In this document: piece by piece, positions 3,915 to 58,403 of the stretch | Numbering within the stretch: position 1 is the first letter of the stretch | Layout of the letters: the number at the start of each line of letters is the position of its first letter | NCBI GenBank assembly: GCA_032622095.1 | Contig: CP136065.1 | Location: 153,517,577-153,581,576, forward strand | Source: Siphonodentalium dalli | Lineage: Eukaryota > Mollusca > Scaphopoda > Gadilida > Siphonodentaliidae | Length of the DNA: 64,000 nt | Direction: 5' to 3' | Program-made: the position numbers and the translations under genes | Notes under the pieces: generated by a model | Told to the model about the DNA's origin: nothing | Database searches by the model: none | Seen by the model: only the letters and a program-made list of their open reading frames with translations

Positions 3915-4185
3915 TTAACCTTTCTATACTAAATGGCTTCCATTCAGTTCTAAAAGTATAGAATGGAATAGTCTATTATTAATTTGGATGGGCGATCAAG
4001 AAACATAAGCAGACAACAGACAGGAAAACAGATATTAGTGCAAGATCAGGCTGATTCATATTCAATGGTGGGAAATGTTTAGATAATAAGTTCAACAAAT
4101 GACCATGGTCATTTGTTGAACTTATTATCTGAACATTTCCTAAGGGAACAACTCATCAATGAGTATTTAGTATAGAAAGGGTTAA
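3915..4185. mobile_element. TTAA-flanked MITE, CTATACTAAAT family (family D)
   Basis: TTAA-CCTTTCTATACTAAATGG at the left and TTTAGTATAGAAAGGG-TTAA at the right. The centre is a near-perfect palindrome (about 4070-4140): GGGAAATGTTTAGATAATAA and its reverse complement around GACCATGGTC. CCCTTT-type ends plus TTAA target sites are typical of piggyBac-superfamily MITEs. No coding capacity. This is one of the best-preserved copies of the family. Confidence 0.85.
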
Positions 4186-4590: not shown

Positions 4591-4696
4591 GGTAATTTTC
4601 CGCTGTTTTATGGGCAAGCATATAATAGAAACATCTTCCTTCGGCCCTTGAAATTATGAAAAATTTCCCACGACAAATTGAATAATGTGGCATTAT

Positions 4697-4912
4697 ACAG
4701 TAATGCCCTAAATAATCGACTCCTTAACAACAGCATAATTATGGGTAATTTTTCAGGATTTAGTCGGAAATATGGCTTGTTGCCATTCATTGGAAATCTC
4801 TCAGTGAGAGCTTTCTAATGCATGGCAGCAAGCCATATTTCTGACTAAATCCTGAAAAATTACCCATAATTCTGCAGTGGTTAAGGAGTCGATTATTTAG
4901 GGCATTACTGTA
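4697..4912. mobile_element. Palindromic TA-flanked MITE (family E)
   Basis: TA-CAGTAATGCCCTAAATAAT at the left and ATTATTTAGGGCATTACTG-TA at the right. The two halves are nearly perfect reverse complements of about 100 bp with a short central loop. TA target duplication and CAGT- ends fit Tc1/mariner-type MITEs. Eight copies occur in the window. Confidence 0.85.
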
Positions 4913-5761: not shown

Positions 5762-6159
5762 TTAACCCTTTACCCAACAAACCGGCCAAAACCGGCCAAA
5801 TAAAGCTTCAACAGCCTAAAATATCTTCGGTCTGTCTCAATAGAACCATACAAATATGGATATCATTGGAACCGGTTCATTCACCACATTGTGATGGTTA
5901 GTTATGCCCTGTGCCAATGCATTCTCTTATATATGCGAGTCGACCATAGGTCGCCTCGCATATATAAGAGAATACATTGGCCTAAAAAAAATCTGTTTTT
6001 AACACTTTTTACCATTTTTTCTTACATTCTTTAACAATTTTATAATTTTTAATGTGTTAAGCCAATGCATTCTCTTATATATGCGAGGAGACCTATGGTC
6101 GACTCGCATATATAAGAGAATGCATTGGCACAGGGCTCTTCTGTTGGGTAAAGGGTTAA
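5762..6159. mobile_element. TTAA MITE with ACCCAACAAACCGG ends and double hairpin (family B)
   Basis: TTAA-CCCTTTACCCAACAAACC at the left and TCTGTTGGGTAAAGGG-TTAA at the right. Inside are two long hairpins, about 5909-5984 and 6060-6132, built from GCCAATGCATTCTCTTATA and its complement around a CGACCATAGGTCG-type loop. They are separated by an AT-rich spacer containing CTTACATTCTTTAAC. The hairpin core is shared with family A elements, whose ends differ. Confidence 0.85.
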
Positions 6160-7198
6160 AGCCCAGGATAATCTAATCAGATGTATGTCTCTGGAACTCC
6201 CAACACCTATTTGATTCTGTATTGGTGGAATTCACTTCATTCCATTGGCCATGTCTCAGACTGGGCGCTATTTCATTTGTTGCATAGCACCAGCTCATTA
6301 CAAGGTGGAATCCAGTCTCTATACAAATATGATAACAACTACAAACACTGGTTCATGGTTGGTTATATTTAAATTGCAAGATCAGAGGTCAATGACATGT
6401 TTACAGTTTTTCCAGCATAGCGACAAACCACAAATTTTATAATACATGTACAGAATACAGGTGACATATTAATAATAATTCATGATATTCATCACAATCT
6501 AAGAACGTCATATTTTATTTTTTATCAGTCAACGATATTTATTACTGATTATTTTATCCCATCCTGTTGTTTGTATAACTATTGCAAAATACTATGATTC
6601 TCACAAACATTTACTACACCAGGCATGCACTCCATATTTGGAACAATTTATTAAGTCATCTTGGGAAAGCCCATGCAGTCATCTTAGAAATCAACTATGA
6701 GTCGGAGTTACAGAGAAGTAAATCTGATAAAATAATCATCGTCTTTTAAGAGAATGATGACACTGGACTGTGGCAACCACCCCAACCCCCCCCCCCCCCC
6801 TACCACATTCCCCCAAGACCCTGTAGCAAATACTCAAGGTAGAATGTTCAGTACTGGGCATATTAAATGATGCTTCAAATTACGGAACTTGACAAGTTGG
6901 AATGTGTTGTAATTTCAAATTTATAACTAGCTTGGTAGCAGCACTACCATTTTATCACTCAAAAGAAGTCCCAAATTGGTAAATCGATGTTGGAGAATGT
7001 GCTAGCTTCCCTGAACTAATGCTCCCTATGCCCAAGCTAATAAACAGAGGTTACCCAATATTGTAATTCCTATTGACAAGAAATTCAATTTATAGTGCAT
7101 CAGAGTAATATTAGCTGAAATTCAGCCCTAACAGGATTCTTTATTAGAGACCTTAAGAAATTTTTTAACCTGTTGCTGCCGAGCTGAATTGAACTATT
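6160..7198. other. No feature recognised
   Basis: Mostly AT-rich DNA with a poly-C run at about 6786-6800. Open frames near 6181-6440 lack splice or codon support. Confidence 0.35.
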
Positions 7199-7371
7199 AA
7201 AGAAATAAAGAGGATCTACAACGAGTCGCCAGTTTATAGCGGAATTTACAAAACAAGTCCAGTAAATTAGGTCTGGACCAAGCCTTTGGCGAGGTCCAGA
7301 CATAATTTACTCGACGAGTTTTGTAAATTCCGCTATAAACTGGGGACGAGTTGCAGATTCTATTTATTACA
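7199..7371. repeat. Long hairpin / palindromic MITE-like repeat
   Basis: CCAGTTTATAGCGGAATTTA near 7229 pairs with TAAATTCCGCTATAAACTGG near 7325-7344, and GGTCTGGACC pairs with GGTCCAGAC around the centre. Pairing extends outward (AAATAAAGAGGATCTACAAC against GCAGATTCTATTTATT). No second copy seen in the window. Confidence 0.7.
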
Positions 7372-7576
7372 TGATCCAAAACCTTGACAAAACATATTTA
7401 AATCAACAAATGGGACGAGAAACTAACAACGGCTTCTATAAGGCATGCGATGACGTTTCACGTAACTATGCGTTGTGTGCCCGCGTAAAGAAATAGTCCC
7501 AGATAAATAGAGACTCTTTGGTGTATTTAATGGCATATATTTAATGACATAACTTTTCAAATTCTTCATTCATTAC

Positions 7577-7690
7577 AGTTTGTGGGAAAAATATTGGACG
7601 CCATAGTATTTTGAGATGTAGCATACGGAATGTAAACAGATGACAAACCGGAAGTCAAAGGTCACCTAGCACTATTTCCTGTTATTAAAC
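7577..7690 (-). promoter_or_regulatory. Possible promoter / first exon on the minus strand
   Basis: Read on the minus strand, a CTTCCGGTTT (ETS-like) motif and a TGACCTTTGAC stretch lie shortly upstream of ATGGCGTCC (start codon complement 7602-7604). Nine codons follow before a weak donor ACT|GTAATG. The surroundings are relatively CpG-rich for this window. No downstream exon was identified, so this is only a suggestion. Confidence 0.15.
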
Positions 7691-8439
7691 GAACGTTTAA
7701 TATCACAATTTATAGAATGGGTTTACTGAATGGAATAAGGGTAGGATCGTGTAATAAAATGATATATTAATCTCCCAGTGAAGAACATTTTCAGCAGAAA
7801 TGGAATAACTTTTCATTTTCTTGTTCAATGCCCAAAAAGAAATATTCCCCCCACCCCAAAACCTTTATTTAGTCGAAAGTAAATTCAATTCGTCTAGTAA
7901 TTTCACACATTTAGTGCTGATTCAAGAATTGCATCATTGCATCTAAACATCTCAACTCTGTTGTCTACGCAATTGAGTTTGGCAAATCAGGAAAGAACTT
8001 CCCGGAGTTGGAAATTTGGTCTAGTCTCGCTTATATTATTTCTCCTAGGTCTAGTTCAGGAGATGGAGTGCAGATGAAAATTGGAAGCTAGTTAGTTAGA
8101 TACCCTAGTGACGTTGCCACCATCTATACTGTGTCCCTAATGATGGTGGCGTATGGCCTTTGTTGATAATTTGGGAATAAGAAACAAGGGATTATAAGTG
8201 TGGTCAAATACTATGTACAATAGAGAAATACTACACCATATAATATTCCCTAATCGGCCAACGAAAAGAATTAGTTATTTGGCGTAAAGAGAATTTATAA
8301 ATTACTGCATGCATTTTTTACGAAAATTATGGAACCCCTGCATTAATTCGGAAAAAGCCTCGGAATGCCCAGCATAACAATTGACCTTCACTGATTAGCA
8401 CAGTTTACTGTTCAGTTCTGAGCCAATCAAATGCAGATC

Positions 8440-8760
8440 CTATTCATTAGTGGGAAATGTTCAGACAATAAGTTCAACATAAGGCTATTCATCGAACTTA
8501 ATATTTTTATAGCGTCACTTAATATTTTTATAGCATCATTACAAATGAATCCAAAAGGTTTTCAAGTCCACCTGTGTTCTGTTTCTATGTTCTGAACATG
8601 AGTACAAATGAAAAGTAGTTCATTCCATTGTATACTTTATTAACTGAATGGAAGAATCAATTGAATAACAAGACAGTAAATAGGGCGTTTGTTGACATTG
8701 TTGGATCACTCAAGTAACTACTCATCAATGAGTATCAGTTTATAGGGTTTATAGGGTTAA
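8440..8760. mobile_element. Degenerate family D MITE
   Basis: Contains AGTGGGAAATGTTCAGACAA, TCAACTACTCATCAATGAGT-like segments and a right end ATAGGG-TTAA at 8757-8760. The left end is not clear. A 21-bp internal duplication (CACTTAATATTTTTATAGC) lies near 8500-8545. Confidence 0.55.
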
Positions 8761-9019
8761 GCCATCAAACAGTGCACATGCCTAATTAATTATAACAAGA
8801 GGTTTTTAAGTGGCTCATTGATAGGTCATCAATCAGTGGAAGATTAGCAAATCTCATGCATAAAACATTAGTCTAATCACTCGACATGAGTGGACATGAT
8901 AGACATACTGTCTGTTAATTTACATAACTGACACATGCAGGTGGACCCAGTACCTTGGGCAGACTGACACCCGTTATATAACTCAAGCTATTTGTTGAAG
9001 ACTATGGTGTATTATATTG

Positions 9020-9357
9020 TTAACCCTTTATTTACTCAATACTCTTGGACAAGCAGTTCCCACCAATGAAAATTAATCCTGGACTTGTAATATTGGTTCA
9101 TCTGGCTGCTGTCTACTTTTAAAAATTCATGAACATCCCTTATTAGACAATTTAAATATTTAATTTTACTAGTCAATGGGAGAACAGCTCCCTTTATAAT
9201 AGAAACATTTCCATCCAATGAATAGGAATCCTTCTGCACTTATATTATCTGCCGTCTGCTTATATTTCCTGGACATCCCTCCAGATGAATAATAGACCAT
9301 TCCGATATATACATTTATTTATTAATGGGAGAATCCATTCAGTAATTAAAGGGTTAA
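9020..9357. mobile_element. Family D-like TTAA MITE, reversed and diverged
   Basis: TTAA-CCCTTTATTTACTCAA at the left and GTAATTAAAGGG-TTAA at the right. It contains the family D landmarks in reverse (GACATCCCTCCAGATGAATA, GACCATTCCGATATATAC). The interior palindrome is replaced by unfamiliar sequence. Confidence 0.65.
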
Positions 9358-9361
9358 ACCT

Positions 9362-9415
9362 TTGATTAGTGAATGGAATCTAACACTCAATTCTAGAAGT
9401 ATACAATGGAATAGC
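9362..9415. repeat. Family D fragment
   Basis: Short left-half remnant (GAAGTATACAATGGAATAGC) lying between a full-length relative and the following tandem-core element. Confidence 0.45.
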
Positions 9416-9418
9416 CCA

Positions 9419-10149
9419 ATTTATACGCCCCTTTTTGAAAAAAGGTCGTATTATGTAATCAGTCTGTCCGCCGTCTGTCCGTCCGTCCATCTGTCCATCC
9501 GTTAACATTTTTTGTTTCCGATCGATAACTCCAGTTTGGATTATTTGATCTGAACCAAAGTTGGTATGTGTATTTCCCAGCTAAAGATACAGGCCAAGTT
9601 CGAATATGGGTTCCTTCCAATTATGTTTCCATGAGTTACGGCCCTTTTTCGACTTAGAATTTGACCATCTGTTAACATTTTTGGTTTCCGGCCGATAACT
9701 CCAGTTTGGATTATTTGATCTGAACCAAAGTTGGTATGTGTATTTCCCAGCTAACGATACAGGCCAAGTTCGAGTATGGGTTCTGTCCAGTTATTTTAGT
9801 GTGAGTTACAGCCCTTTTTCGACTTAGAATTTGACCAATTTCATAACATTTCGGTTTCTGACCGATAACTCCAGTTTTTATTATTTGATCTGAACCAAAG
9901 CTGGTATGTGTATTTCCCAGCTAAAACTACAGGCCAAGTTCGAGTATAGGTTCTGTCTAATTGTTTTCACATGAGTTACAGCCATTTTTCGACTTAGAAT
10001 TTGACTGCATTTTGGCATTGAAATTCGGGGTATATCAGATATTCTTCAAATGTAAGCCCAAAGTATTATTTTATTTTGCGGTAGTACAATTCGAAATAGC
10101 TAAAGGGCGTATTTTGCCACGCCCTAGCGATGCTCTTGTTAATTTATAG
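9419..10149. mobile_element. Tandem-core (pearl/Helentron-like) element, three ~181-bp units
   Basis: Starts ATACGCCCCTTTTTGAAAAA, then a CTGTCCGTCCGTCCAT microsatellite. Three units of about 181 bp follow, each carrying GATAACTCCAGTTT, GATCTGAACCAAAG, TGTGTATTTCCCAGCTAA and TTTTTCGACTTAGAATTTGA. It ends with GGGCGTATTTTGCCACGCCC. The layout (microsatellite plus tandem core) resembles bivalve pearl-type non-autonomous Helentrons. No Rep/helicase gene is present. Confidence 0.6.
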
Positions 10150-10159
10150 GAATGTTCAT

Positions 10160-10266
10160 ATAATACTACCAGTTGACAGGCAGAGATATCCCTTTGATTT
10201 TATTTGTAGGGATAACCAGCCTGAGTCAGGAATCAAGTAACTACACATCAATGAGAGTTTAGCTAT
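10160..10266. repeat. Family D right-end fragment
   Basis: AAGTAACTACACATCAATGA and GAGTTTAGCTATTATAAACC match the right end of family D. It directly abuts the next, more complete copy. Confidence 0.45.
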
Positions 10267-10505
10267 TATAAACCCTTTCTGTACTAAATGAAGTCTCCCA
10301 TCCATTCAGTTACATGTATTAAAGTATACATTGGAATGGTCTATTATTAATCTGATGGGATGTTCAGGAAGAAAAATGTGGACGAAAGGCAAACAATGAG
10401 ATAAAGTGGAGAAGGATTCCTATTAGCTAGTGGGAAATGTTCAGATAATAAGTTCACAAAATGCCATTTGTTGAACTGATGAGTATTTATTAGATAAAGG
10501 GTTAA
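10267..10505. mobile_element. Family D TTAA MITE
   Basis: AAACCCTTTCTGTACTAAATG at the left and ATTAGATAAAGGG-TTAA at the right (TTAA 10502-10505). It includes GTGGGAAATGTTCAGATAAT and a shortened central palindrome. Confidence 0.75.
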
Positions 10506-10720
10506 GTGGTTAAAGGAGTGTCTGACCATACAAAGTATAGCTGTATATTATTTTTGTTTTAAAGTTTAGGTTGAAGTTTAATATGTGATTGAAAATTTCC
10601 AACAAGAGTGTTCTATATGTATTTCTTTGTTTAAAATAAGCGAGGGGATCCAAACATTGCTATTATCGTTAAAAGAACCCAAAGACTCATGATTCTAGAG
10701 TGAACATATTTTATTTCATA

Positions 10721-10972
10721 TTAACCCTTCCATGACAGCAGCTTCTTGAAATATTTTGAAAACCCTGTGCCAGTGTATTCTCTTATATATGTAAGTCTCA
10801 CACAGGGAGCCTCACATATATAAGAGAATACATTGGCCTAACAATATTTGCCTTGACCTTGTAAGCCAGTGCATTCTCTTACCTACGGGAGACTCATATA
10901 TATATATATAAGAGAATGCACTGGCACATCTTTAAAGCTGCACCAGCGCTCCTCCGGTCATGAGAGGGTTAA
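10721..10972. mobile_element. TTAA double-hairpin MITE (family A)
   Basis: TTAA-CCCTTCCATGACAGCAGCTT at the left, CTCCGGTCATGAGAGGG-TTAA at the right. Two hairpins (GCCAGTGTATTCTCTTATAT...; GCCAGTGCATTCTCTTACC...) are separated by CCTAACAATATTTGCCTTGA. The right part contains the family's AGCTGCACCAGCGC motif. Confidence 0.85.
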
Positions 10973-11220
10973 AGGATATGACCAAAGAAATTCTGAAATA
11001 AAATGATAGTTATCATAGTAAAATGTGCTGGTACACTTTTTGAAAAGAAGCTCAGGTTACCAGAAGACGTGTATCAACCTTATGTACATATAGCTAATGC
11101 TGAAGTTTCTTATTTCAAACAATTGGGAGGGGAGGGGCTTAACCTTAAAATTGTCCATATTAGTTCTAATGCCAGGTTCTCAATAAAAGTGTGAAACCAT
11201 GCATTTGGAATGCTGGTTGT

Positions 11221-11668
11221 CAAGTCTGCAAATAGTGTGTCTGCCATTTGCAGAATGAGGTCCCCAGAAGGTGAATTTAGTGACTTTATACCGGAGAGTG
11301 AGCTAGCATCACCAAATTCACCCTCTGGGGACCTCATTCTGCTTAGGCCTAATCTTCTGGGAAGTATCTATAGTTTCAAATCAGCATTGCCTTTTAGTTA
11401 CTTTTCCTTCTGGGATGTTTCTATATCCCCTAACTTGCAGAATATATAATGCATAATTGAGGTGACTATTAAATGGGTGAACATCACCAACTTCAACTGG
11501 GGTACTTCAATCTGATCCTAGGTCTACCATAGCACTTGAGGTCTGAACAGAATGAGGTTACCAGAGGGTGAATTTGGTAATGCTAGCCCACCATGGGGGA
11601 TAGCATCACTAAATTTACCCTCTGGGGACCCCATTCTGCAAATGACAGACACACTATTAGCAGACTTG
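11221..11668. mobile_element. hAT-like MITE, full copy with 8-bp target duplication (family C)
   Basis: Ends are CAAGTCTGCAAATAGTGTG and the matching CACACTATTAGCAGACTTG. CTGGTTGT flanks both sides (11213-11220 and 11669-11676), a perfect 8-bp target duplication as expected for the hAT superfamily. Subterminal palindromic modules carry GAATGAGGTCCCCAGA and its complement. The middle holds a stretch shared by all copies (TCATCTTCTGGGAAGTATCT; AACTTCAACTGGGGTACTTC). Non-coding. Confidence 0.88.
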
Positions 11669-12167
11669 CTGGTTGTATTGAATGCTCACTTTAAAACATC
11701 AAATTAAACATCAATAGCATTTGGAAAATCATTTCCATTTACAAAGGCACCATTCAAAATCTGCTTGGAGGGAGAGACTTATGCACAATAATTATAGCTT
11801 TTTGTAAAGAAATTGATGAAATTTCACAGGAAATAACACTAATGATAAATGCCCCAAAATTAATATTGCAAATGCAGTTGGTCGTCTGTAAATATATGAC
11901 TAACATGGTAAACTGAATGAGTCACATCAGGTATAGCAACACCTCATTGAATATTAAATGTCTATTGGATCGAATATGAAATGACAATATATAAAAATAT
12001 GATAACTCAAAATTTGAAAATTAGGTAGACCTGTTGCCCATTTGTAATGGTTAAAACTTGTATTTATATGCATCTTGATATAACCAAATTAGATATTTTG
12101 GATACACATTCTGTTTTCTATGCATGATTGCTTCGCAGTAGGGGCCTTAATATTCATGGAAACTCTG

Positions 12168-12213
12168 AGGAGTGTGTCTGCAAATGTCAGACACACTATA
12201 TCCAGGCTTGTGC
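12168..12213. repeat. Solo end of family C element
   Basis: Only GTGTGTCTGCAAATGTCAGAC and ACACTATATCCAGGCTTG are present, the two extreme termini joined with the body missing. Confidence 0.55.
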
Positions 12214-12783
12214 ACGAGGCCAGAGGCCAGCGACTATCACTGTCTACAGAAGTTATATAGTCATCAAGACCCTTTGTCACTCACTATAACTGACTTCTCC
12301 CTTGCCCTTGATGACATTTATATGAGGCTTTTATTTCGTATTTATGACAAATCTGGAGGGTGGTCTATGCTAGAAGTCTTGTATTACTATGCTGACTCAT
12401 TCTGTCTAATCTGAGCTTGTCCCAGTTAGCAGGCTGGACATTGTCCTAACATGTGATCATCACTGTAAACCCGTCTCAAAATGTTAACTGCTCTCATGTG
12501 ATAATCACTAATCCATCCCAGAGTGCAGCTTGATATATTTATCAAATTTCACAGCTATATATTTATATAGCTCATCTTTGTTACACTAAATCCTGTTTGG
12601 TGATTGGTCAACTGTCAAAGGGTCATCCGTTTCATACCCAAATAATACAGACCATAACACGAGATCACAAATTGTTGAATTATCTGACCTACTAAAAGCA
12701 GTCAGCAGAATAATTGGTGTTAATATTTCAAAACCAATCAATGGATCGATACAAATAACTATACAGGTGAGGGGTGAATCATC

Positions 12784-12965
12784 ATTAACCTGCACATAAA
12801 ATATGAACACGATCTGATAAAAAATACTTGAGTTATCGAGTGGGATAGCATGTGTCTATGGACAGATGGACGGACGAATGACAGATAATTGATCCCGATG
12901 TTGGCATTATGTTTACCATAAATGGTATGGGTACACATAAAAACAAAAACTGAGCATGATTATTA
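12784..12965. mobile_element. 3' part of tandem-core (pearl-like) element
   Basis: AATACTTGAGTTATCGAG, a GGACAGATGGACGGACGAA microsatellite and a terminal hairpin ATGTTTACCATAAATGGTAT. The same arrangement closes the element at 31604-31985. Confidence 0.5.
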
Positions 12966-13470
12966 TATATGCCACTTTGAGCCCCTTGTGATTTACACAC
13001 TATATATCATTAGAAAAATACAGGAAATGGTTCAATAGACAGAATTTCATGCGTTAAAAGTGTATGCATAAATCTTTTATATTGACATCCACGAAACTGA
13101 GAGGTTTGTCTCAGAACTCAAAAGAATCAGGAGGTTAGAAATTCGTTTGATGTTTAGGGTTATATTGATTCATAGGTTGGAGAGATATGAATTGATGAGG
13201 CCGCCGATAAGTCGATTCAGTAACAGTATGTGATAGTACCATCAAAGATGCGTGTGATACCTCGTTAGCACCATATTACAATTGACTCAGACTAGTGGCA
13301 CCAGGCAGACAATTAGTTGTGAAAGAATAAAAGTTATCACATATGGAACAAAAAAATCAATAATATCGAAGTGAGATATGGTAAGTGAATTCTGCAAGCT
13401 AAACACAATATTCCAGACGGACTGAAGCAGCACACCTCTCCAGTTACACGGCAACCTCAAATTTATGCAG

Positions 13471-13727
13471 TTTGACCCTTCCTTTACTAAATGAATTCTC
13501 CCCACTTAGTTACAAGTCTACATTGGATTGGTCCATTATTCAGTTGGAGGGATGTTAAGGATATACATGTATGTGCAGACGTCAACGAGTTAAAAAATTA
13601 TACAAGTGCTGAAGTATTCATATTCATTGGTGGGAAATGTTCAGATATGGTCGTTTGTTGAAATTATTATCTGAACATTTCCTAAGAGAACTACTTGTCA
13701 ATGAGTATTTAGTACATAAAGGGTTAA
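13471..13727. mobile_element. Family D TTAA MITE
   Basis: Left end decayed (TTTGACCCTTCCTTTACTAA); right end TTAGTACATAAAGGG-TTAA. The central palindrome around GTCGTTTGTTG is shortened. Confidence 0.7.
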
Positions 13728-13824
13728 TCTTTTCCTGTTATGAGATCTCATTCAACCCTTCTCCTCACTAACCCCCTCACCACCTCCAATCCGATCAAGT
13801 TATGATATAAAGAGGGTTGCAAGG

Positions 13825-14079
13825 TTAACCCTTTCATGATGGAAGATGCGCTGGTGCAGCATTATAGATCCTGTGCCAATACATTCTCTTATATATGAGA
13901 GTTTCCCATATATTAAAAGAATGTGCACTGGCTTAGTAAAAGGTCAAGGTAAATATTGTTAGGCCAATGTATTCTCTTATATATTCGAGGCTCCCTGTGG
14001 GATACTCGCATATATAAGATAATGTATTTGCACAGGGTTTTCACAAAAATTTAGGAAGCTCCAGTCATGTAATGGTTTA
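13825..14079. mobile_element. Family A TTAA MITE, inverted
   Basis: TTAA-CCCTTTCATGATGGAAG, then GCGCTGGTGCAGCATTATAG. Hairpins follow, with a CCTGTGGGATACTCGCATAT-type loop. The right end GAAGCTCCAGTCATGTAATGG has lost its exact TTAA. Confidence 0.75.
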
Positions 14080-14189
14080 TTTTTCCAATATGAACTGTTT
14101 CAGGTTGAAATCACACAATTAATTTGTCACACTACATATCATATGATTTATGTCAATATAGAAGCCCAACAAATATAATTCCAACAAAG

Positions 14190-14385
14190 AACCATAATTC
14201 TGGTGAAAATCGGCAGGCAGACCCAAACTCAAACTTGAGTTTTTGGCTAGTAAACTTGCATACCAAATTTCATTCCATTCAGTTCAGACTAACTAGAGTC
14301 ATCATCCCGAAAAGAAAATCGAGTGCAAATATCTCATTGGTTGTGCACCCAACAGTTCTTTGCAAGATGACAGACTATCCTTAAG
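14190..14385. repeat. Tandem-core (ATAACTCTGGTGAAAAT) repeat unit
   Basis: ACCATAATTCTGGTGAAAAT, GGCTAGTAAACTTGCATACC and CATTCCATTCAGTTCAGACT match the two units at 48880-49130. This is a solo unit without the microsatellite. Confidence 0.6.
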
Positions 14386-14707
14386 ATTATCCTTGTTTTT
14401 AAAGAGATTGTATATCAGGACCAGTTCCAGCTTTGAACATGTGAAAAAAAATAGGAAGCTGGAGAGAGAGAGAAGAAACAGATGTGTCAGTCAGCAGCAT
14501 GCCCCCTGTGTGCTTGGTGGATGGTTTGAGTAGGTATTAATTATTCAGAACTGGAGAGCGATTGACTGTAAAGATCCAATCATCACCCCATCACTCTCTG
14601 CTTAATTAGATCAACCTGGTGTAAGTGTTCACCTGGGCTCAACTCCATCAGCAGATATCTTCTACAGGTGTACTGCCTCAAGAGTCTCATGGTACAGTTA
14701 TTATTTA

Positions 14708-14790
14708 TTAACCCATACTAAACAGGATGTATTCTCCCATTATGTGATAAAAGTATACACATATTGGTCCATCACAGTCAGGGTTGGCTG
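14708..14790. repeat. Family D left-end fragment
   Basis: TTAA-CCCATACTAAACAGGATG, AAAAGTATACACATATTGGT. Truncated 16 bp before the next family A element. Confidence 0.55.
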
Positions 14791-14806
14791 ATTTAAACAA
14801 TTATAA

Positions 14807-15032
14807 TAAACCCTTCCATGACTGGAGCTTCCTAAAATTTTGTGAAAACCTTGTGCCAATGCATTCTCTTTATATATATGTGAGTCTCCCATAGGAGACC
14901 TAATAATATTTACTTTGACCTTGTAAGCCAGTGCATTCTCTTATATATGCATATATATATATATATAAAGAGAATGCACTGGCACAGGATCTTTATTGCT
15001 GCACCAGCACAGCTCCCGGCACAAAAGGGTTT
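14807..15032. mobile_element. Family A MITE
   Basis: AAACCCTTCCATGACTGGAG at the left; CAGCTCCCGGCACAAAAGGG at the right. The first hairpin has lost its 3' arm, and the second has an (AT)n-expanded loop. Confidence 0.7.
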
Positions 15033-15039
15033 CAAGATT

Positions 15040-15105
15040 TAAATCAATGATTTTTTTCAAAAAAATCATTGATTTAAATCAAATTTTTTTAAATGATAAA
15101 AAAGT
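15040..15105. repeat. GATTTAAATCAATGATTT palindrome
   Basis: GATTTAAATCAATGATTTTT pairs with AAAAATCATTGATTTAAATC across a short loop. A related ATTGATTTAAATCATTGATTT string lies at about 46244-46265. It may be the end of another MITE family. Confidence 0.5.
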
Positions 15106-15486
15106 CAAGAACTGCAATATCTGACAAGGGTTTTGTCTTACCTTATATAACAGTTACATTTTTGTTAACATTTCAGGAATTTCTTACTAAACATGCATAA
15201 AATGACACTTTCCTGTGGCAGACCCCCCACCCATGAGCCTCTCTCAAGAGGGGCAGCCGCTGAACATGTCTTAAAACCTAGGCTTACACAAGCTGCCTAC
15301 ACACTACATTAGCAAGCAATCTCATTGCCTTTTAAAATCCTAGAGCACTACAATTCCTTGTAGAAGCATCATCCTTCATCCTGTCAACGGCGCCAGCTTA
15401 CATAATACTAAGAATGCTTTACTATCCGTGTCTGTCTCATTACCCTTCTCTACCACTGAATCAAAGTCATAGAAAATCAAACATAC

Positions 15487-15549
15487 GCAGAGGATACGTG
15501 CAGGGAATTTATATCCAATGCACCTCTGCACACGACTCCTCGCACATCT
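15487..15549 (-). CDS. Candidate internal exon, minus strand
   Basis: On the minus strand an acceptor CATTACATTTATCAG and a donor CTCTGC|GTATGTTTG bound 63 bases. The frame with one leading base reads DVRGVVCRGALDINSLHVSS. A second frame (RCARSRVQ...) is also open, the third stops. It is isolated, with no neighbouring exon linked to it. Product unknown. Confidence 0.22.
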
Positions 15550-15792
15550 CTGATAAATGTAATGTAGAAGTGAGGCTGACATCAGCTTCATCATTCTGAC
15601 AAATTTTCATATTAGGTTTTTTATTAGGCTAGAGTACTTTCTCTGTGACGAACAGCAAGCAAATTGATATTAATGGGACCTGTTATAAATGTAGCCTCAA
15701 GAGTATGCAAAGGAATTCTCATGACTGGCTGAAATGTATGGAAAGTATAAAGGAAAGAATAAATTTTAGGCGCTCCCCAGAGATGTGTTATT

Positions 15793-16149
15793 TTAACCCT
15801 TTCATGATTGGAGCTTCCTGAATTTTTGTGCCAATGCTTTCTCTTAATATATATGCGAGTCGACCATAGGTCGCCTCGGGTATATAAGAGAATGCATTGG
15901 CCTAACAAATTTTATATATATTTTATAATTATAATTGTTAAAGAATGTAAGAAATAATGATAAAAAAAAAAAAAATGTTAAAGAATGTAAGAAAATACAT
16001 AGGATGCCTCGCATATTTTAGAGAATGCATTGGCCTAACAATATTTACCTTGACGTTGTAAGCCAATGAGACTCACATTATATAAGAGAATGCACTGGCA
16101 CATGATCTTTAATGCTGCACCAGCGCAGCTCCAGTCATGAAAGGGTTAA
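15793..16149. mobile_element. Hybrid TTAA MITE: family A ends, family B core
   Basis: Ends are family A (TTAA-CCCTTTCATGATTGGAGC; AGCTCCAGTCATGAAAGGG-TTAA). The first hairpin loop is the GTCGACCATAGGTCGCC of family B, and the spacer contains GTTAAAGAATGTAAGAAA, the reverse complement of the family B spacer. The second half returns to family A (CCTAACAATATTTACCTTGA, GCTGCACCAGCGCAGCTCC). It appears to be a recombinant of the two. Confidence 0.8.
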
Positions 16150-16492
16150 AACCCTAGGATTTGCTTAGTGGCACACTAAGATTTAGTTTTGTTTTGGTTT
16201 AAATTTCCCAGTTGACCAGGTTGTCTGGCTTTATATAAACACATATCAAACAAATAAATAGTGGTACTTGTCATCGACTTTCTATACCCCACCCCCACCA
16301 TGGGATTCCAAGTCGGTATCACCAATCACCAATCATAACTCACTATTAGTAGCACAAAGATAAAAGTGTCCAATCAAAATGATTAATGTAGCATGATGTT
16401 ACATATTGGGAGAAGACCGCAAGCGTGTTCCGAGAAGAAAAATTTGGCAAGGAATAAGATAGACACAGTATCAACATGAATATGAGTGTATG

Positions 16493-16600
16493 TTAACCCT
16501 TTCATGACAGGAGCTGGCTAGTGCAGCACTAAAGATCGTGTGCCAGTGCATTCACTTATATATGTAAGTCTCACATATATAAGAGAATGCACTGGCTTAC
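16493..16600. repeat. Left half of family A MITE, duplicated
   Basis: TTAA-CCCTTTCATGACAGGAGC through CACTGGCTTAC. It is repeated almost exactly at 16792-16901, including the flank TGAGTGTATG before the TTAA. It ends at the start of a family C fragment. Confidence 0.75.
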
Positions 16601-16785
16601 ATAGTGGGCTAGCATCACCAAATTCACCCTCTGGGGACCTCATTCTGCTTTATACACCTCAGCAGAATGAGGTTCCCAGAGGGTGAATTTGGTGATGCTA
16701 GCTCGCTATGCGGGGTAGCATCACTAAATTCACCCTCTTGGAACCTCATACTGCAAATGACAGACACACTATTTCAAGGCTTGAG
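16601..16785. repeat. Family C fragment between family A copies
   Basis: Carries both subterminal palindromes (GGGCTAGCATCACCAAATTC... and AGCAGAATGAGGTTCCCAGA...) and the right end CAAATGACAGACACACTATT, but lacks the central section and left terminus. Confidence 0.75.
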
Positions 16786-16791
16786 TGTATG

Positions 16792-17042
16792 TTAACCCTT
16801 TCATGACAGGAGCTGGCTAGTGCAGCACTAAAAATCATGTGCCAGTGCATTCACTTATATATGTAAGTCTCACATATATAAGAGAATGCACTGGCTTACA
16901 AGGTCAAAGTAAATATTATTAGGCCAATGCATTCTCTTATATGTGTGTGAGGCTCCATATGGGAGATTCAAATATATAAGAGAAAGCATTGGCACAGGGT
17001 TTTCGCAAAATTTCAAGAAACTCCAGTCATGAAAGGGATAAC
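16792..17042. mobile_element. Family A TTAA MITE, full length
   Basis: TTAA-CCCTTTCATGACAGGAGC at the left. Two hairpins follow, then AGAAACTCCAGTCATGAAAGGG with a decayed TTAA (GATAA) at the right. The orientation is inverted relative to 10721-10972. Confidence 0.8.
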
Positions 17043-18865: not shown

Positions 18866-19134
18866 ATAACCCTTCCATGACTGGAGATTCCTGAAATTTT
18901 GCGAAAATCCTGTGCCAATGCATTCTCTTATATATGCGAGTCTCCCATAAGGAGCCTCGCATATACAAGAGAAAACATTGGCCTAACAAATTTTTTACCT
19001 TGACCTTGTATTTTAAAGCCAGTGCATTCTCTTATATTTGCAAGGCTCCCTATGGATACTCTCATATATAAGAGAATGCATAACACAGGATCTTCAATGC
19101 TGCACCAGTGTTTTTCCTGTCATGAATCGGTTAA
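18866..19134. mobile_element. Family A MITE
   Basis: Left TTAA decayed (CATAACCCTTCCATGACTGG); right end TTTTCCTGTCATGAATCGG-TTAA. Both hairpins are present, with CCCATAAGGAGCCTC and CTCCCTATGGATACTC loops. Confidence 0.75.
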
Positions 19135-20945: not shown

Positions 20946-21507
20946 ATACGATAAATTACAAGACGGTGTGATCTGCGGAACATTCTAGGCAATTCATCAA
21001 TTACTCATCCCTCTGAGTAGTTAAACTAGGGGCTATCAGAAGCTTCCAAAAGCAAGGGGACAGAACATTTACAGTAATGCCCTAAATAATCGACTCCTTA
21101 ACCACATCAGAATTATGGGTAATTTCTCAGGATTTAGTCGGAAATATGGCTTGTTGCCATTCATCGGAAAGCTCTCAGTGAATCCTGAAAAATTACCCAT
21201 AATTCTGCCGTGGTTAAGGAGTCGATATACGATAAATTACAAGACGGTGTGATCTGCGGAACATTCTAGGCAATTCATCAATTACTCATCCCTCTGAGTA
21301 GTTAAACTAGGGGCTATCAGAAGCATCCAAAAGCAAGGGGACAGAACATCTACAGTAATGCCCTAAATAATCGACTCCTTAACCACAGCAGAATTATGGG
21401 TAATTTCTCAGGATTTAGTCGGAAATATGGCTTGTTGCCATTCATCGGAAAGCTCTCAGTGAATCCTGAAAAATTACCCATAATTCTGCCGTGGTTTAAG
21501 GAGTCGA
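20946..21507. repeat. 281-bp tandem duplication (two units)
   Basis: Unit 1 is 20946-21226, unit 2 is 21227-21507, both beginning ATACGATAAATTACAAGACG. They are nearly identical (GCTTCCAAAAG versus GCATCCAAAAG is one of few differences). The junction falls inside the right arm of a family E MITE. Confidence 0.9.
21072..21227. mobile_element. Family E MITE, truncated by tandem duplication
   Basis: Starts TA-CAGTAATGCCC. The second arm stops at AAGGAGTCGAT where the duplicated unit begins. The centre lacks the usual GAGCTTTCCGATGAATGG stretch. Confidence 0.8.
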
Positions 21508-21525
21508 TTATTTAGGGCATTACTG
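21353..21525. mobile_element. Family E MITE, shorter form
   Basis: TA-CAGTAATGCCCTAAAT to TTTAGGGCATTACTG-TA. It has the same central deletion as the neighbouring copy, showing the deletion came before the tandem duplication. Confidence 0.85.
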
Positions 21526-22945: not shown

Positions 22946-22990
22946 TATACAATAAATAGGTAGAATTGCCCCTGAATTATTCAATGTACT

Positions 22991-23330
22991 CAAGTCTGCA
23001 AATAGTGTCTGTCATTTTCAGAATGAGGTCCCCAGAGGGTGAATTTATAGTGTATCTATCCCGCACACTCTGGCAACCTCATTCTGCTTTATAGGCCTCA
23101 TTTTTTGGGAAGTATCTATAGTCTCAAATTAACATTGTTTTTAGTTAATTTTTCCCTTCTTTTGCAGAAGATAAAATGTATAATCAAGATGACTAAATGG
23201 GAGAACGTTACATCACCAACTTCAACTTCAATTGAATCTGATCCTAGGTCTCCCTTAGCAGTTGAGACCTAAGCAGAATGAGACTGTCCCCAGAGAGTGA
23301 ATTTGGTGATGCTAACTATTTGCAGTCTTG
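22991..23330. mobile_element. Family C MITE, partial
   Basis: Both termini (CAAGTCTGCAAATAGTG and CTATTTGCAGTCTTG) and the central AACTTCAACT region are present. The subterminal palindromes are shortened at both ends. Flanks AATGTACT and AATGCCTG agree only at four positions. Confidence 0.75.
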
Positions 23331-24057: not shown

Positions 24058-24320
24058 TTAACCCTTTGAAGACCAGTGCTGCTTTGGTGCAGCATTACAG
24101 ATCATGTGCCAGTGCATTTTCTTATATATCTGAGTCTCCCATAGGGAGCCTCACAGATATAAGAGAATGCACTGGCTAATATTGTCAAGGTAAATATTGT
24201 TAGGACAATGTATTCTCTTATATATGCAAGGCTCCCTATGTGAGACTCGCATATATAAGAGAATGCATTACAACATGGCTTTCGCAAAATTTCAGGAAGC
24301 TCCAGTCATAGAACAGTAAA
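24058..24320. mobile_element. Family A MITE, inverted
   Basis: TTAA-CCCTTTGAAGACCAGTGC; hairpins with CCATAGGGAGCCTC and CTCCCTATGTGAGAC loops; decayed right end GGAAGCTCCAGTCATAGAAC. A minus-strand ORF across it repeats a FSYICE motif only because the hairpin is repeated. Confidence 0.75.
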
Positions 24321-34951: not shown

Positions 34952-35473
34952 ACAATGGCAGCCCCATGGGTAAATATATTTGCAATATTTTTATTTTGAT
35001 CCGATTATTGAATGGTCCCATGGCCACAGGTGCAAATTAAGCAGTTTATTCGTGGTGATTACACGATCCACCACTATTTAAATGGGGTGGTCATTTTAAT
35101 AGTCAGTTAATAATGACTTCAGTAAAAGGTGTGTTCACACAACTCAAGACGCCACCATAATTATTTCCAACTGATGCAAATCAAAAAAGTTACATTTTTA
35201 AAAACATTTTTAAAAATGTGATTGAAAGTGGTATGGCATGAATTTTTTACAGTATAAAGCTCCATCTACAAATATCTACCGATGCATTTCATTTAGTTGC
35301 GCAAATATGGCACTATCATAAAAGTGTTGAAAAACGACATACATGTGGTTCCACCCACCAACCATATAACGACATAAATGTTATTCTACCCGCAAAAGGG
35401 TTATAAGCTGTACATATATCACCAATAATCAATTAAGGCTACGAAAGGCCCTGCAGAAGCCCAGTCATATGTT

Positions 35474-35679
35474 AATAACCCTTCCATATACATGTACATG
35501 TATATTAAGAGAATGCATTGGCCTAACAATACTTACATTGGTCTTGTAAGCCAGTGCATTCTCTTCTATATGCGAGGCTCCTTATGGGAGACTTGCATAT
35601 ATAAGAGAATGCACTGGCACGGGGTCTTTCATGCTGCACCAGCGCAGCTCCCTTCATGCCAAGTTCATGGAAGGGTTAA
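35474..35679. mobile_element. Family A MITE with left-hairpin deletion
   Basis: AACCCTTCCATATACATG joins directly to AAGAGAATGCATTGGCC, so one hairpin arm is lost. The second hairpin and right end (GCACCAGCGCAGCTCCCTTC...GGAAGGG-TTAA) are intact. Confidence 0.75.
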
Positions 35680-36613: not shown

Positions 36614-36672
<59 letters not shown>

Positions 36673-36795
36673 TTAGGCCAATGCATTCTCTTATATATGC
36701 GAGGCGACCTATGGTCGACTCGCATATATAAGAGAATGCATTGGCACAGGGTATGTGGGTTGATACAAAAATCGACCTGGCACTCAAAGGGTTAA
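36526..36795. mobile_element. TTAA MITE with GAGTGACGGGGGCCGA ends, family B-like core
   Basis: TTAA-CCCTTTGAGTGACGGGGG at the left and CTGGCACTCAAAGGG-TTAA at the right. Inside is GTTAAAGAATATAAGAATAA, then a 53-base poly-A run (36618-36670) and a single hairpin GCCAATGCATTCTCTTATAT with a CGACCTATGGTCG loop. The core matches 5762-6159 but the terminal sequences differ. Confidence 0.82.
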
Positions 36796-36897: not shown

Positions 36898-37262
36898 AGT
36901 GGGCTAATGTCACCAAATTCACCCTTTGGGGACCTCATTCTTAGGCCTCATCTTCTATGAAGTATCTATAGTCTCAAATTAACATTGTTTTTAGTTACTT
37001 TTCCCCTTCTGTTCAGTTTCTATATCCACTAATTTGCAGAAGATAAATTGCATAATTGAGGTATTAAAAACTAATGGGCGAAAATCACCAACTTCAACTG
37101 GGGAACATCAATCTGATCCTAGCTAGGTCTCCCATAGCAATTGGGGCCTAAACAGAATGAGGTCCCCATAGGGTGAATTTGGTGATGCTAGCCCGCTGTG
37201 TGGGATAGCGTCCCTAAATTTACCCTCTGGGACCTAAATTCTGCAAATGTCAGGCACACCTT
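36898..37262. mobile_element. Family C MITE, partial
   Basis: Begins within the left palindrome (GGGCTAATGTCACCAAATTC) and runs to CAAATGTCAGGCACACC. Left terminus absent. Confidence 0.75.
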
Positions 37263-41544: not shown

Positions 41545-42320
41545 GCCTGATGAGTTTCTATCAAAACCAAGAGGACCATACATTCAAGATAGTTGTTCAG
41601 TTTAATCAGTTATAAATGCAAACCAGTAGAATTGAAACTCCAGAATTTGAGTTGTGAACAGTTTAGATTTTTAAATGATGGACGCAATTTGTCACCCTAT
41701 AGGACCACCTTTAACTCTTTCGTTGCCGGAGCTTTTTCACTTTTTAGACACTGTCCTATGATTTCCAGGTGATGGATCTAGGTCTAAAAAATACCCAAAA
41801 TGACTGACCCTGGTGTTTTTAGATTCGCTATCACCTCTTTATTCATGTCCCAAAACAATTTTAGAAAAAAAAATATTTTTCCAATTTTTTTTTTTAGACG
41901 CAATTTTTCGATTGTTTTAGGGCCGAAAATATAGGCCCCTGGCAACGAAAGAGTTAATAATGGGCAATACCTTCTTTAATACTAACTTTCTATATCTATT
42001 AAGGGTCCCAAGCAGTGAAGAAAGCACCTCATGAACTGGTGATGCCGAAATAGAAGTTTTTTTTAGCAGTATGGTTGTCCAAAAGGAACCATAACATTTA
42101 ATGAGCTGAGGAAATTAAGTATCATATGCACCATAAAAGCAATCAGGAGATGCTTTTAGAGCTTTGTTTCCGGACAGATCCTGGATAGTTTTATGACAAG
42201 CTGAAAGTAGAACAACCAGTTTTCCTGGATCAATGATGTTAATCTATCATCTTCTATTCATTAGGAAACCAGGAGATGAGAATTTATTTTTTTCAATTTT
42301 TTCAATATGTCACCTTCTTC
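41545..42320. repeat. Tandem segmental duplication, unit 1
   Basis: Pairs with 42320-43065. Landmarks: AAGATAGTTGTTCAGTTTAA, CAATTTGTCACCCTATAGGA, ATTTAATGAGCTGAGGAAAT, CACCATAAAAGCAATCAGGA and GATAGTTTTATGACAA. The unit is interrupted at its TTAA by the 41711-41957 element. Confidence 0.85.
41711..41957. mobile_element. TTAA MITE, CTCTTTCGTTGCCGG family (family H)
   Basis: TTAA-CTCTTTCGTTGCCGGAGC at the left and CCTGGCAACGAAAGAG-TTAA at the right. AT-rich interior, including GCCGAAAATATAGGC. Only copy in the window. The termini fit the same TTAA/CYCTTT class as the other families. Confidence 0.8.
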
Positions 42321-43065
42321 CAACTTAGTGATAATCTCCCTTTGTATCAAATCCAACAGTACCATATGTTCAAAATAGTTGTTCAGTTTATTATAAATGT
42401 AAACAAGTGGATTTAAACTCATGAATTTCAGTTGTGAATAGTTTAGATTTGTAAATGGTAAAAACAATTTGTCACCCTAGGGCCACCTTAACCCTTTCTG
42501 TACTAAATAATCATTGATGATTTATATAGTTCCTTAAGAAATGTTCTACAATCGCTTGTTGAACTTATTATCTGAACATTTCCCATCAATGAGTATGAAT
42601 CATTCTGAACTTGTATTATCTTTTTGTCATACTGTCATTTGCTCATTTGACCTAAACATCCCTCCAAATGAATAATAGACCATTCCAATATATACATTTA
42701 TAACTAAACAGGACAATCCATTTAGTATAGTGAGGGTTAATGTGCAATTCCTACTTGAATACTGACTTCCTATACCCAATAGGGGCCCCAATCAATGCAG
42801 AAAGCAGAACATGAACAGGTGATGACAGAATGGAAGTTTTTTTGCAGTATGGGTGTCCAAAATGAACCATAAAATTTAATGAGCTGAGGAAATTAAGCAT
42901 CATATGCACCATAAAAGCAATCAGGAGATGTTTTTCAAGCTTTGTTTCTGCACAGATCCGGGATAGTTTTATGACAATCTGAATGAAGAACAACTGGTCT
43001 TCCTGGATCGAGGCTGTTAGACTGTCATCTTCTCTTCATTAGAAAACCATAAAATTAGGAGATCA
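42320..43065. repeat. Tandem segmental duplication, unit 2
   Basis: Same landmarks as unit 1 at an offset of about 775 bp (AAAATAGTTGTTCAGTTTAT, CAATTTGTCACCCTAGGG, ATTTAATGAGCTGAGGAAAT, CACCATAAAAGCAATCAGGA). A minus-strand frame open in unit 2 contains a stop in unit 1, so the duplicate is not evidently coding. Confidence 0.85.
42488..42740. mobile_element. Family D MITE, inverted, at the duplicated TTAA site
   Basis: TTAA-CCCTTTCTGTACTAAATA to TTTAGTATAGTGAGGG-TTAA. It sits between CCCTAGGGCCACC and TGTGCAATTCCTACTTG, the position equivalent to that of the family H element in unit 1. Confidence 0.85.
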
Positions 43066-44827: not shown

Positions 44828-44883
44828 TATCTATGTATTTTAAAATAGATACCTCCTGCAGATAACAGCAGAGTCTTGAGTTA

Positions 44884-45085
44884 TTAACCCTTTCTATACT
44901 AGATGGTTTCTTCTACTCAGTTATAAAAGTATACATTGGAATGGTCTATTATTCAATTGGAGAGTGTTTCCGAAAAAATAAGCAGTCGAAAGATAATACA
45001 AGTACAGAAGGAGTCCTATTTATTGGAGTGAAATGTTTCCTAGGAATAACTACTCATCAATGAGTATTATGACAGAAAGGGTTAA
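44884..45085. mobile_element. Family D MITE
   Basis: TTAA-CCCTTTCTATACTAGATG to GAGTATTATGACAGAAAGGG-TTAA. The central palindrome is deleted (GAAATGTTTCCTAGGAATAAC). Confidence 0.8.
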
Positions 45086-45129
45086 GATTCATGAAAAACG
45101 TGAAAATGACAATATAATATTTATAAATA

Positions 45130-45380
45130 TTAACCCTTTAACAATGGGAGCTGCACTGGTGCAGCATTAAAGATTCTGTGCCAGTGCATTCTCTTATATA
45201 TGCGAGTGTCCCATAGGGAGCCTCACATATATAAGAGAATACATTGGCCTAACTATTTACCTTGACCTAGTAAGCCAGTACATTCTCTTATATGCGAGGC
45301 TATGGGAGACTCGCATATTATAAATATAAGAGAATGCACTGGCACAAGAACTTAAATGCTGCACACAACTTTTTTCTTAA
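45130..45380. mobile_element. Family A MITE
   Basis: TTAA-CCCTTTAACAATGGGAGCTGC and AATGCTGCACAC are at opposite ends, with two hairpins between. The right terminus is decayed (TTTTTTCTTAA). Confidence 0.75.
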
Positions 45381-45544
45381 CAGCATGCAGCATGACTTTA
45401 CCCCACCAAAATCATAGGATTATATAGCATGAAGACAGTTGATAATTACTACCTGATAATAGGACTCTATATCATACCATTTGACCACCTATTAATTTAT
45501 AGAGATAGATATGTGGTCAGTGCTGACAGAGTACTATGGCTTAC

Positions 45545-45683: not shown

Positions 45684-45768
45684 TTAACTCCTTCCATCAC
45701 TGGAGCTTCTTGAAATTTTGCGAAAACCCTGTGCCAATGCATTCTCTTATATATGCGAGTCTCCTTTT
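45684..45768. repeat. Truncated family A left end
   Basis: TTAA-CTCCTTCCATCACTGGAGC to ATATGCGAGTCTCC. It breaks off inside the first hairpin loop, where a family C element begins. Confidence 0.75.
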
Positions 45769-46152
45769 GGGCTAGCATCACTAAATTCACCTTCTGGGGA
45801 CCTCATTCTGCTTTAATAGGTCTCATCTTCTCTGGAAAGTTTCTTTGTTATCAAATTTCAACAGAAACTTCTTCATATAGATTCTATTTCTTTTTTCGTT
45901 TAGTTTCTCTATATCCCCAAATTGGCAGAGGACACATTGCATAATTGAGGTTCCCAATGGGTGTACATTACATATTCACCATTTGGGAACTTCAAACTGA
46001 GTATATGTCTCCCATAGCAGATGAGGCCATGCAGAATGAGGTCCCCAGAGGGTGAATTCAGTGATGCTAGCCCGCTATGCAGGATAGTGTCACTAAATTC
46101 ACCCTCTGGGGACCTCATTCTGCGAATGACAGGCACACTAATCTCAGACATC
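45769..46152. mobile_element. Family C MITE, left end missing
   Basis: GGGCTAGCATCACTAAATTC at the left; AATGACAGGCACACTAATCT with CAGACATCCTTG at the right. The body is typical apart from a rewritten central part (CACCATTTGGGAACTTCAAA). Confidence 0.75.
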
Positions 46153-46358: not shown

Positions 46359-46585
46359 GTAACCCTTTCATGACGAGAGCTTCCTGAAAGTTTTTGTTTT
46401 TGAAAACCCTGTGCCAATGCATTCTCTTATATATGCGAGTCTCCCATAGTAAGCCTCACATATATAAGAGAAAACATTGGCCTAACAATATTTACGTTGA
46501 CCTTGTAAACCAATGAATTCTCTTATATATTCGAGTCTCCCACTTTCATGCTGCCCCAGCGCAACTCCCGTCTTGAACGTGTTAA
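46359..46585. mobile_element. Family A MITE, second hairpin broken
   Basis: TAACCCTTTCATGACGAGAGC to GCGCAACTCCCGTCTTGAACG, TTAA at 46582. The second hairpin has only one arm (CTCTTATATATTCGAGTCTC). Confidence 0.7.
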
Positions 46586-47705: not shown

Positions 47706-47858
47706 TAAATGGTGTTAGTTTTTTTTAATTTTGATCTAAAAAAAATTTAATTTAAAAAAATAAAAACAAAATCTTTAATAAATATTAAATTGAGCAAGGA
47801 GTTCACTCCAAAATAATTGTTTATAAAAAGTTTAAATGATTCAAGATAAATATTTTTA

Positions 47859-47998
47859 AGCCCTATGTGAGATTCGCATATATAAGAGAATGCAACGGTA
47901 CAGGGTTTTCACAAAATTTCAGGAAACTCAAGTCATGGAAGGATTCAAGTATATGAAAGGGATAACTGGGAGAATCCATTTTGTAAATAAAGGGTTAA
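47859..47998. repeat. Fragments of family A then family D
   Basis: The right arm of a family A hairpin (GATTCGCATATATAAGAGAA, TTTCAGGAAACTCAAGTCAT) is followed directly by a family D right end (CTGGGAGAATCCATTTTG, AAAGGG-TTAA at 47995). Confidence 0.6.
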
Positions 47999-50152: not shown

Positions 50153-50498
50153 CAATTTAAACCTCAAGCTGGTCCCTGCCAGTTATAACCAGGGCCCTAA
50201 TCATCAAGATATCAGTATAATTAAGAATGTGGCATTGGTGATTTGATAATTCCAGCCTGTCAGATCTAGTTTATAAGCTTCAAATCTCCCATTCACTTCA
50301 GGCTTCACATCAGATAACTTTCCCATGGTATTAACTAGATGTGCTTCAGGCTAAGGAAATACTGAACACTCTGTTGAGGGCCCTATTAACTAAGACCATA
50401 TGAGGCATTGTGGGAAGAAACAAGTTGTATTTTCTGAGAATATTGAACTTCGACTCTCATGCAGGTGAGGTCATTTGGGGTAAAGGTGTTTACACAAT

Positions 50499-58382: not shown

Positions 58383-58403
58383 TAGGGTTTATCATTGTTT
58401 CAG

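Follow-up and report, generated by a model that had tools for sequence, protein, structure and literature searches.

The closest described counterparts of the elements reported here come from the coral Acropora, in which Wang et al. (2010) found CMITEs, that is, TTAA miniature inverted-repeat transposable elements (MITEs) with different terminal inverted repeats (TIRs) and a shared interior (PMC2872659). The available part of that paper describes TTAA duplications, CCCTTT-type TIRs of 13-14 bp, a link to piggyBac and one element, AP824033492, with a core at odds with its TIR family; the authors call the origin of the shared interior a mystery (PMC2872659). The words palindrome, hairpin and recombination are absent from its main text (PMC2872659). 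We analyzed a 64,000-nt stretch of the scaphopod mollusc Siphonodentalium dalli (assembly GCA_032622095.1, contig CP136065.1, positions 153,517,577 to 153,581,576), referred to below as the window, and all copy counts and core/end comparisons were made within it. The window is repeat-rich, with 36% G+C and a CpG observed/expected ratio of 0.50. We found that TTAA elements with three different end types carry the same hairpin core, and that core subtype and end type are incongruent; judged from the sequence, exchange between elements is a well-supported explanation.

The end types were labeled A (CCCTTTCATGAC), B (CCCTTTACCCAACA) and C (CCCTTTGAGTGAC), and the window contained 15 A-type loci (fragments and one hybrid copy counted), two B, one C and one element D. 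The core unit common to A, B and C is directional and reads CCCTGTG-hairpin-CCTAACA from outside to inside. In particular, the hairpin is a 69-nt near-palindrome, GCCAATGCATTCTCTTATATATGCGAG...CTCGCATATATAAGAGAATGCATTGGC, followed by CCTAACA or TTACAAGG. Two such units, inverted with respect to each other and separated by a spacer, make up the core of an intact A or B element, which thereby has four similar 27-nt arms, whereas C contains one unit. With at most five substitutions allowed, the window contained the 27-nt arm 42 times and none of 10 order-1 Markov windows contained it, which places the core far above chance. An earlier note on this sequence had claimed that TTAA families with different ends share a hairpin, and this was borne out, as were the positions given for the A, B and C elements; its statement that every family carries the same hairpin is correct as to the sharing, but C has one hairpin only. 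The end letters that it gave for the copy at 10721 were wrong: this copy reads CATGACAGCAGC, not CATGACNGGAGC, and the hairpins have GCCAGTG variants.

Two core subtypes were distinguished. The alpha core has the loop TCTCCCATAGGGAGCC and the spacer TATTTACCTTGACCTTGTAAG, and the beta core has the loop TCGACCATAGGTCGCC and an AT-rich spacer with GTTAAAGAATGTAAGAA; the two loops differ by a paired change (TC/GA to GA/TC). The family B element B1 (5762-6159, forward strand) is composed of a unique left arm (5762-5906), CCCTGTG (5907-5913), beta hairpin 1 (5913-5981), a beta spacer (5982-6060), beta hairpin 2 (6061-6129), CACAGGG (6129-6135) and a short right end up to 6159. Of the second B copy, which is cut by the window end, the left tip is present (63978-64000, forward strand), and its 23 nt equal the first 23 nt of B1. 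The family C element C1 (36526-36795, forward strand) has a D-like left end, a beta-type spacer with a run of 53 A (36618-36670), a sole beta hairpin (36677-36745), CACAGGG and a right end. Element D (41711-41957, reverse strand) is a TTAA element without the hairpin core, and its left end resembles that of C.

To compare core type with end type, 15 elements were scored against diagnostic strings by local alignment, each score being given out of its maximum. The beta loop was exact (21/21) in B1, C1 and the hybrid only, and the best score among the other 12 elements was 13/21. For the beta spacer, B1 and the hybrid each reached 30/32 and C1 reached 19/32, with no other element exceeding 10/32, and by the same scoring the core was absent from D. 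The three carriers of the beta loop have three different end types, and A ends are paired with alpha in the other A copies and with beta in the hybrid. With few B and C copies to compare, the internal region was more conserved between families than the TIRs: in matching orientation, the hairpins of B and C were 97.5% identical over 81 bp and 98.7% over 79 bp, and the spacers also aligned despite their AT-richness (79% over 157 bp, hairpin included).

The ends were compared as segments from TTAACCCTTT to the core, with shuffle p-values for the 45 pairs of 10 end sequences. None of the A-B, A-C and B-C pairs reached p 0.05 (lowest 0.09), and the four B-C comparisons gave p 0.30-0.91, with no significant similarity beyond TTAACCCTTT. 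The description of the terminal sequences as unrelated holds for these pairs, but all ends share TTAACCCTTT or TTAACTCTTT, A left and A right have a TIR in common, and the left ends of C and D are alike (score 16, which none of 300 shuffles attained). Within A, left-left and right-right pairs reached p 0.05; both A left copies matched the A right end of A13 at this level and not that of A2, and A left of A13 matched D left at a nominal p of 0.027. The absence of significant homology between B and C ends that are joined to hairpins 97.5-98.7% identical argues against gradual divergence of the ends. We consider it highly improbable that the ends point-diverged from one ancestor around a core conserved, for example, by selection on the hairpin. 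All compared ends except one do retain TTAACC or TTAACT, and the arms change together in a way that could reflect constraint on structure; against this stand the alignable B and C spacers and the distance between the beginning of TTAA and the core, which is 26 at B right, 44-50 at A left, 46 at A right and C right, and 147 at B left. A comparison close to the one for which the earlier note had asked thus showed a conflict of core and end types within the window, and descent of all ends from one ancestor by point divergence was not upheld there.

The hairpins themselves fold strongly as single-stranded DNA (z -8 to -15 for six hairpins; z -21 for the entire B1). We examined covariation in 12 ungapped hairpins out of 30 listed hairpin or half-hairpin segments. 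The proportion of pairing cells was 90.9%, compared with 87.3% after shuffling, and the covariation score was 0.128 compared with 0.063; both measures exceeded all 500 shuffles. The number of pairs changed on both sides and the number of pair types were not unusual, being reached by 57 and 148 of the 500 shuffles. Arms within one hairpin differed at 4.5 of 33 positions and opposite arms taken from different hairpins at 6.0 of 33 (permutation p 1e-4 over the whole set of 12 hairpins and 0.011 within the nine A hairpins), and same-side arms across hairpins were about as close as arms within a hairpin (4.7 and 4.8 differences of 33). These data suggest that the hairpin arms tend to change together and that the structure may carry some constraint. 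Selection on the hairpin is not claimed, because the measures were mixed and because much of the covariation consists of one inherited loop change and the difference between hairpins 1 and 2. No Rfam match reached the gathering score, searches for identical copies of core, end and other repeat strings gave 0 matches in viral contigs and 0 in GTDB contigs, and six core and end strings had no match in the literature text searched. No description of the present core was found in the literature searched, which omits most subscription journals.

The hybrid copy (15793-16149, forward strand) combines parts of two types. It contains an A left end (15793-15829), a beta hairpin (15830-15901), a beta spacer (about 15902-15997), the inner half of alpha hairpin 1 from 15998, an alpha spacer, a deleted hairpin 2 and an A right end (16100-16149). 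Its scores were 32/43 for the A left end, 44/46 for the A right end, 21/21 for the beta loop, 30/32 for the beta spacer and 26/28 for the alpha spacer. The left end and outer arm follow A, including a T in common with copy A4b where the consensus has A, and beta sequence makes up the loop, the inner arm and the spacer. From CATAGG in the hairpin 1 loop (15998) onward, the copy is again of A type. Relative to the A consensus, this amounts to a 132-nt insertion at the loop; the exit point can be placed only to within the outer arm, since the arms are nearly the same. The earlier view of this copy as A ends with the loop and spacer of B was right about the parts named, but the copy also retains half of the A loop, the A spacer and a damaged hairpin 2, which indicates that the beta segment was added at the hairpin 1 loop and that the A spacer was not replaced.

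Alternatively, the hybrid could be the relic of a three-hairpin ancestor with A ends and both alpha and beta cores, from which A lost beta and B and C lost alpha. The hybrid differs from the A consensus by 13.5% and is at least as diverged as the eight near-complete alpha copies (7.6-12.6%), which would suit a relic; on the other hand, its alpha part restarts in the middle of a loop, lacks the outer arm and looks like a junction, and replacement of the B and C ends would still be needed. On balance, we regard this ancestry as improbable. The incongruence of core and ends speaks for exchange between elements, as the earlier note had proposed, and gene conversion, ectopic recombination and template switching are alike compatible with it. 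Its further proposal that new families arise in this way is supported for B, whose left tip recurs at 63978, but the hybrid and C were each seen once.

The outer edge of the core, (C)CCTGTG, is identical at both A ends, both B ends and the right end of C. This edge, together with D, in which a C-like end exists without the core, would be expected if the core were a small transposable unit of its own (CCCTGTGCC...GGCACAGGG), which different TTAA MITEs had each received in a separate insertion and with which they had then amplified. By eye, however, the A and B junctions show no target-site duplication, and all arm matches of at least 20 nt in the window lie inside TTAA elements or their fragments. 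C carries half a core only, and the loop-to-loop junction of the hybrid is not explained, so that we consider a mobile core possible but unlikely. A nested piggyBac element as the core was rejected, as there is no TTAA beside CCCTGTG at any of the five end types.

A second rearranged A copy, A8 (45130-45390, forward strand), has a right-type end (45130-45179), an alpha core and, on the far side, a right-type subterminal remnant without a TIR (about 45344-45364). The end at 45130 scored 38 when aligned with A right, compared with 14 for A left, and was identical to the A right type at 44 of 50 positions. The other side scored 15 against A right (p 0.001) and 7 against A left (p 0.35). One end of A8 may thus have been replaced, leaving right-type sequence on both sides, and such a copy may be a dead end. 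In the part of the piggyBac work available, constructs with two left ends (LE/LE) are inactive with the native enzyme (PMC7351741); from its candidate palindrome, A right would correspond to the piggyBac LE.

We also mapped insertion and deletion breakpoints in 11 A-type elements including the hybrid (A8, A4a, A9 and A11 left out), using indels of at least 5 nt. The 20 indels gave 35 breakpoints, 28 of which fell in hairpins compared with 18.4 expected from length (p 7e-4), and 10 fell in loops compared with 5.6 expected (p 0.04); both p-values are nominal, because a deletion contributes two breakpoints that depend on each other.

With regard to mobilization, the TTAA sites, CCCT tips and short TIRs fit piggyBac, the tip of which is CCCT. 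TTAA flanks with CC[C/T]T tips, as in piggyBac-type MITEs, were found here, and the TIRs following TTAA were 14 bp in B, 13 bp in D and 19 bp with one mismatch in the hybrid; the 11-bp TIR of C is just below the piggyBac-type range of 12-19 bp, into which the TIRs fall overall. By eye, the tip TTAACCCT was present at both ends of B1, C1, the hybrid and A1, at one end of A2, A4b, A6, A7, A8, A12 and A13, and at neither end of A3, A5 and A10, all of which are decayed; the D tip is CTCT. In piggyBac, the site of the cysteine-rich domain (CRD) is described at bp 17-33 from the tip (PMC7351741, available part). This piggyBac position was adopted for a test of 11 ends, in which a palindrome centered 23-27 bp from the tip was sought; the ends had been viewed by eye beforehand. 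Nominal p-values below 0.05 were obtained at 3 of the 11 ends, near bp 25: C left (8/9 pairs, p 0.003), the right end of E1 (8/9, p 0.004) and D left (7/9, p 0.016); A right had 6/9 pairs (p 0.057). These ends are partly dependent, as C left is related to D left, and E1 and E2 belong to one family. Between A, C/D and E, the candidate palindromes have different sequences, which is also true of piggyBac compared with piggyBat in the available descriptions (PMC7351741, PMC11707139). This pattern suggests that the ends may be served by different transposases and the core is shared.

A further group of TTAA repeats, with ends like CCCTTTCTATACTAAAT, was present at 3915-4185, 42488-42741, 44882-45086, 50497-50733 and 56714-56972. 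It had no link to the hairpin core in self-comparison, and at one of its three tested ends a palindrome near bp 26, counted from the tip, reached nominal significance.

Taken together, the window contains a shared core, A, B and C ends without significant similarity to one another, incongruent combinations of the two and an excess of indel breakpoints in hairpins. We give a probability of roughly 0.6 to the following reading: A, B and C are non-autonomous MITEs of the piggyBac (TTAA) type, and fragile hairpins were the sites at which template switching or ectopic repair exchanged their core. Under this model, the ends would be family-specific, perhaps for different transposases, and the interior would be a shared cassette, CCCTGTG-hairpin-spacer-hairpin-CACAGGG. 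The near-perfect 69-nt palindromes would extrude or stall replication and then break, and repair would switch template to another copy through the arms and sometimes return. Possible outcomes would be a cassette joined to other ends, a second cassette inserted as in the hybrid, an end replaced as in A8, and deleted arms. We infer that stalled replication or breakage sets off the exchange, that it proceeds by a template switch and not by crossing over, and that the ends have different transposases; TTAA elements thus seem able to swap parts.

Several points weigh against this model. The hybrid, the end replacement in A8 and C are each single copies in the window, and the diagnostic strings were picked from the same elements that they score, so the scores display a pattern and are no independent test. 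The A consensus was cleaned by hand, the breakpoint counts are not independent, and palindromes are easily misaligned. Additionally, the loop excess comes entirely from hairpin 2 (8 compared with 2.8 expected; 2 compared with 2.8 in the hairpin 1 loop). Random switching within the core does not by itself explain why the CCCTGTG edge is the same beside five different ends. A clear palindrome was lacking at 7 of the 11 ends, including both B ends (p above 0.1). No transposase was found: of 23 stop-to-stop frames of at least 95 aa, 10 were scanned, and 0 of these had a Pfam match above the cut-off, with three weak matches below it. We also consider a more speculative version, which we regard as doubtful, in which the hairpin cassette persists as a selfish internal module beyond the life of its transposases, its palindromic arms serving as recombination adapters that repeatedly gain it ends suited to new piggyBac transposases. 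If this were true, core-end shuffling would be a regular route by which MITE families are born.

The remaining A-family copies are as follows. Copies with an alpha core were found at 10721-10972 (A1), 18866-19134 (A5) and 56427-56678 (A13) on the forward strand and at 13825-14077 (A2), 16792-17041 (A4b) and 24058-24320 (A6) on the reverse strand. A3 (14807-15033, forward) has an alpha core with deletions in the hairpins, A7 (35472-35679, forward; left limit approximate, 35469 in the computations) has an internal deletion, and hairpin 2 is partly deleted in A10 (46359-46585, forward). A12 (51345-51474, reverse) is a short derivative with one hairpin. A9 (45684-45764, forward) is a left fragment that ends in the hairpin 1 loop against another repeat, and A11 (47858-47947, reverse) is a left fragment whose match ends after the hairpin 1 loop, past which lies a weak spacer-like stretch (18 nt, E 0.41). 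A4a (16493-16600, reverse) is the right half of an A element and a partial duplicate of 16792-16898.

A dispersed repeat, AAATTCACCCTCTGGGGACCTCATTCTGC with variants, partly foldback, was observed at 11220-11679, 16600-16782, 22987-23317, 36898-37259, 45768-46149, 57952-58383 and 62118-62596. Two of its copies adjoin truncated A elements, namely A9 at the hairpin 1 loop and A4a just inside hairpin 2. An A right half with the flank GAGTGTATG is directly duplicated (16484-16599 and 16783-16898), with a AAATTCACCCTCTGGGGACCTCATTCTGC-type repeat between the two. Other repeats include two inverted repeats of one group (4696-4912 and 60989-61207; arms of 108-109 nt, 89-93% complementary, with a single central base), a tandemly duplicated 281-bp unit (20946-21508, 98% matches) and three tandem units of 170 bp (9495-10005, 88% matches).

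MITE families can have interiors that are not related to those of an autonomous element, and a two-core copy with a hairpin-loop junction offers a concrete, testable mechanism for the origin of such interiors. The available accounts of related systems each match the present elements in part. The elements piggyBac and piggyBat share with them the TTAA sites and have an imperfect palindrome centered near bp 25, to which some ends here may have a counterpart; in piggyBat it is described at the left end only (PMC7351741, PMC11707139). CCCT tips are a further common feature. In contrast, no transposase was found in the reading frames scanned here, the candidate palindromes differ between families with none clear in B, and nothing like the long hairpin core is described in the available parts of the piggyBac and piggyBat descriptions (PMC7351741, PMC11707139). 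Pack-TIR gap filling and FoSTeST involve, as is proposed here, a break in a TIR element, template switching and mobile chimeras, although the filler described there is host DNA outside transposable elements, whereas here it would be the core of another MITE (PMC8277862). Galileo/Foldback elements also have long inverted repeats, and gap repair, slippage, template switching and ectopic exchange are named as sources of their structural variety; they belong to the P superfamily and have long TIRs, and no core shared among end types is described in the part of that paper available (PMC4168063). The CMITEs are similar in their TTAA sites, in several TIR families around a conserved interior and in one mixed element (PMC2872659, available part). 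They differ in being about 100 bp long with a 75-bp interior, whereas the elements here are about 250-400 bp long and have a double palindrome as core, one copy holding both cores; the likeness described is one of architecture (PMC2872659, available part). The phenomenon is known, its first description coming from corals, and what is added here is the double-hairpin core, the copy with both cores and the breakpoints in hairpins.

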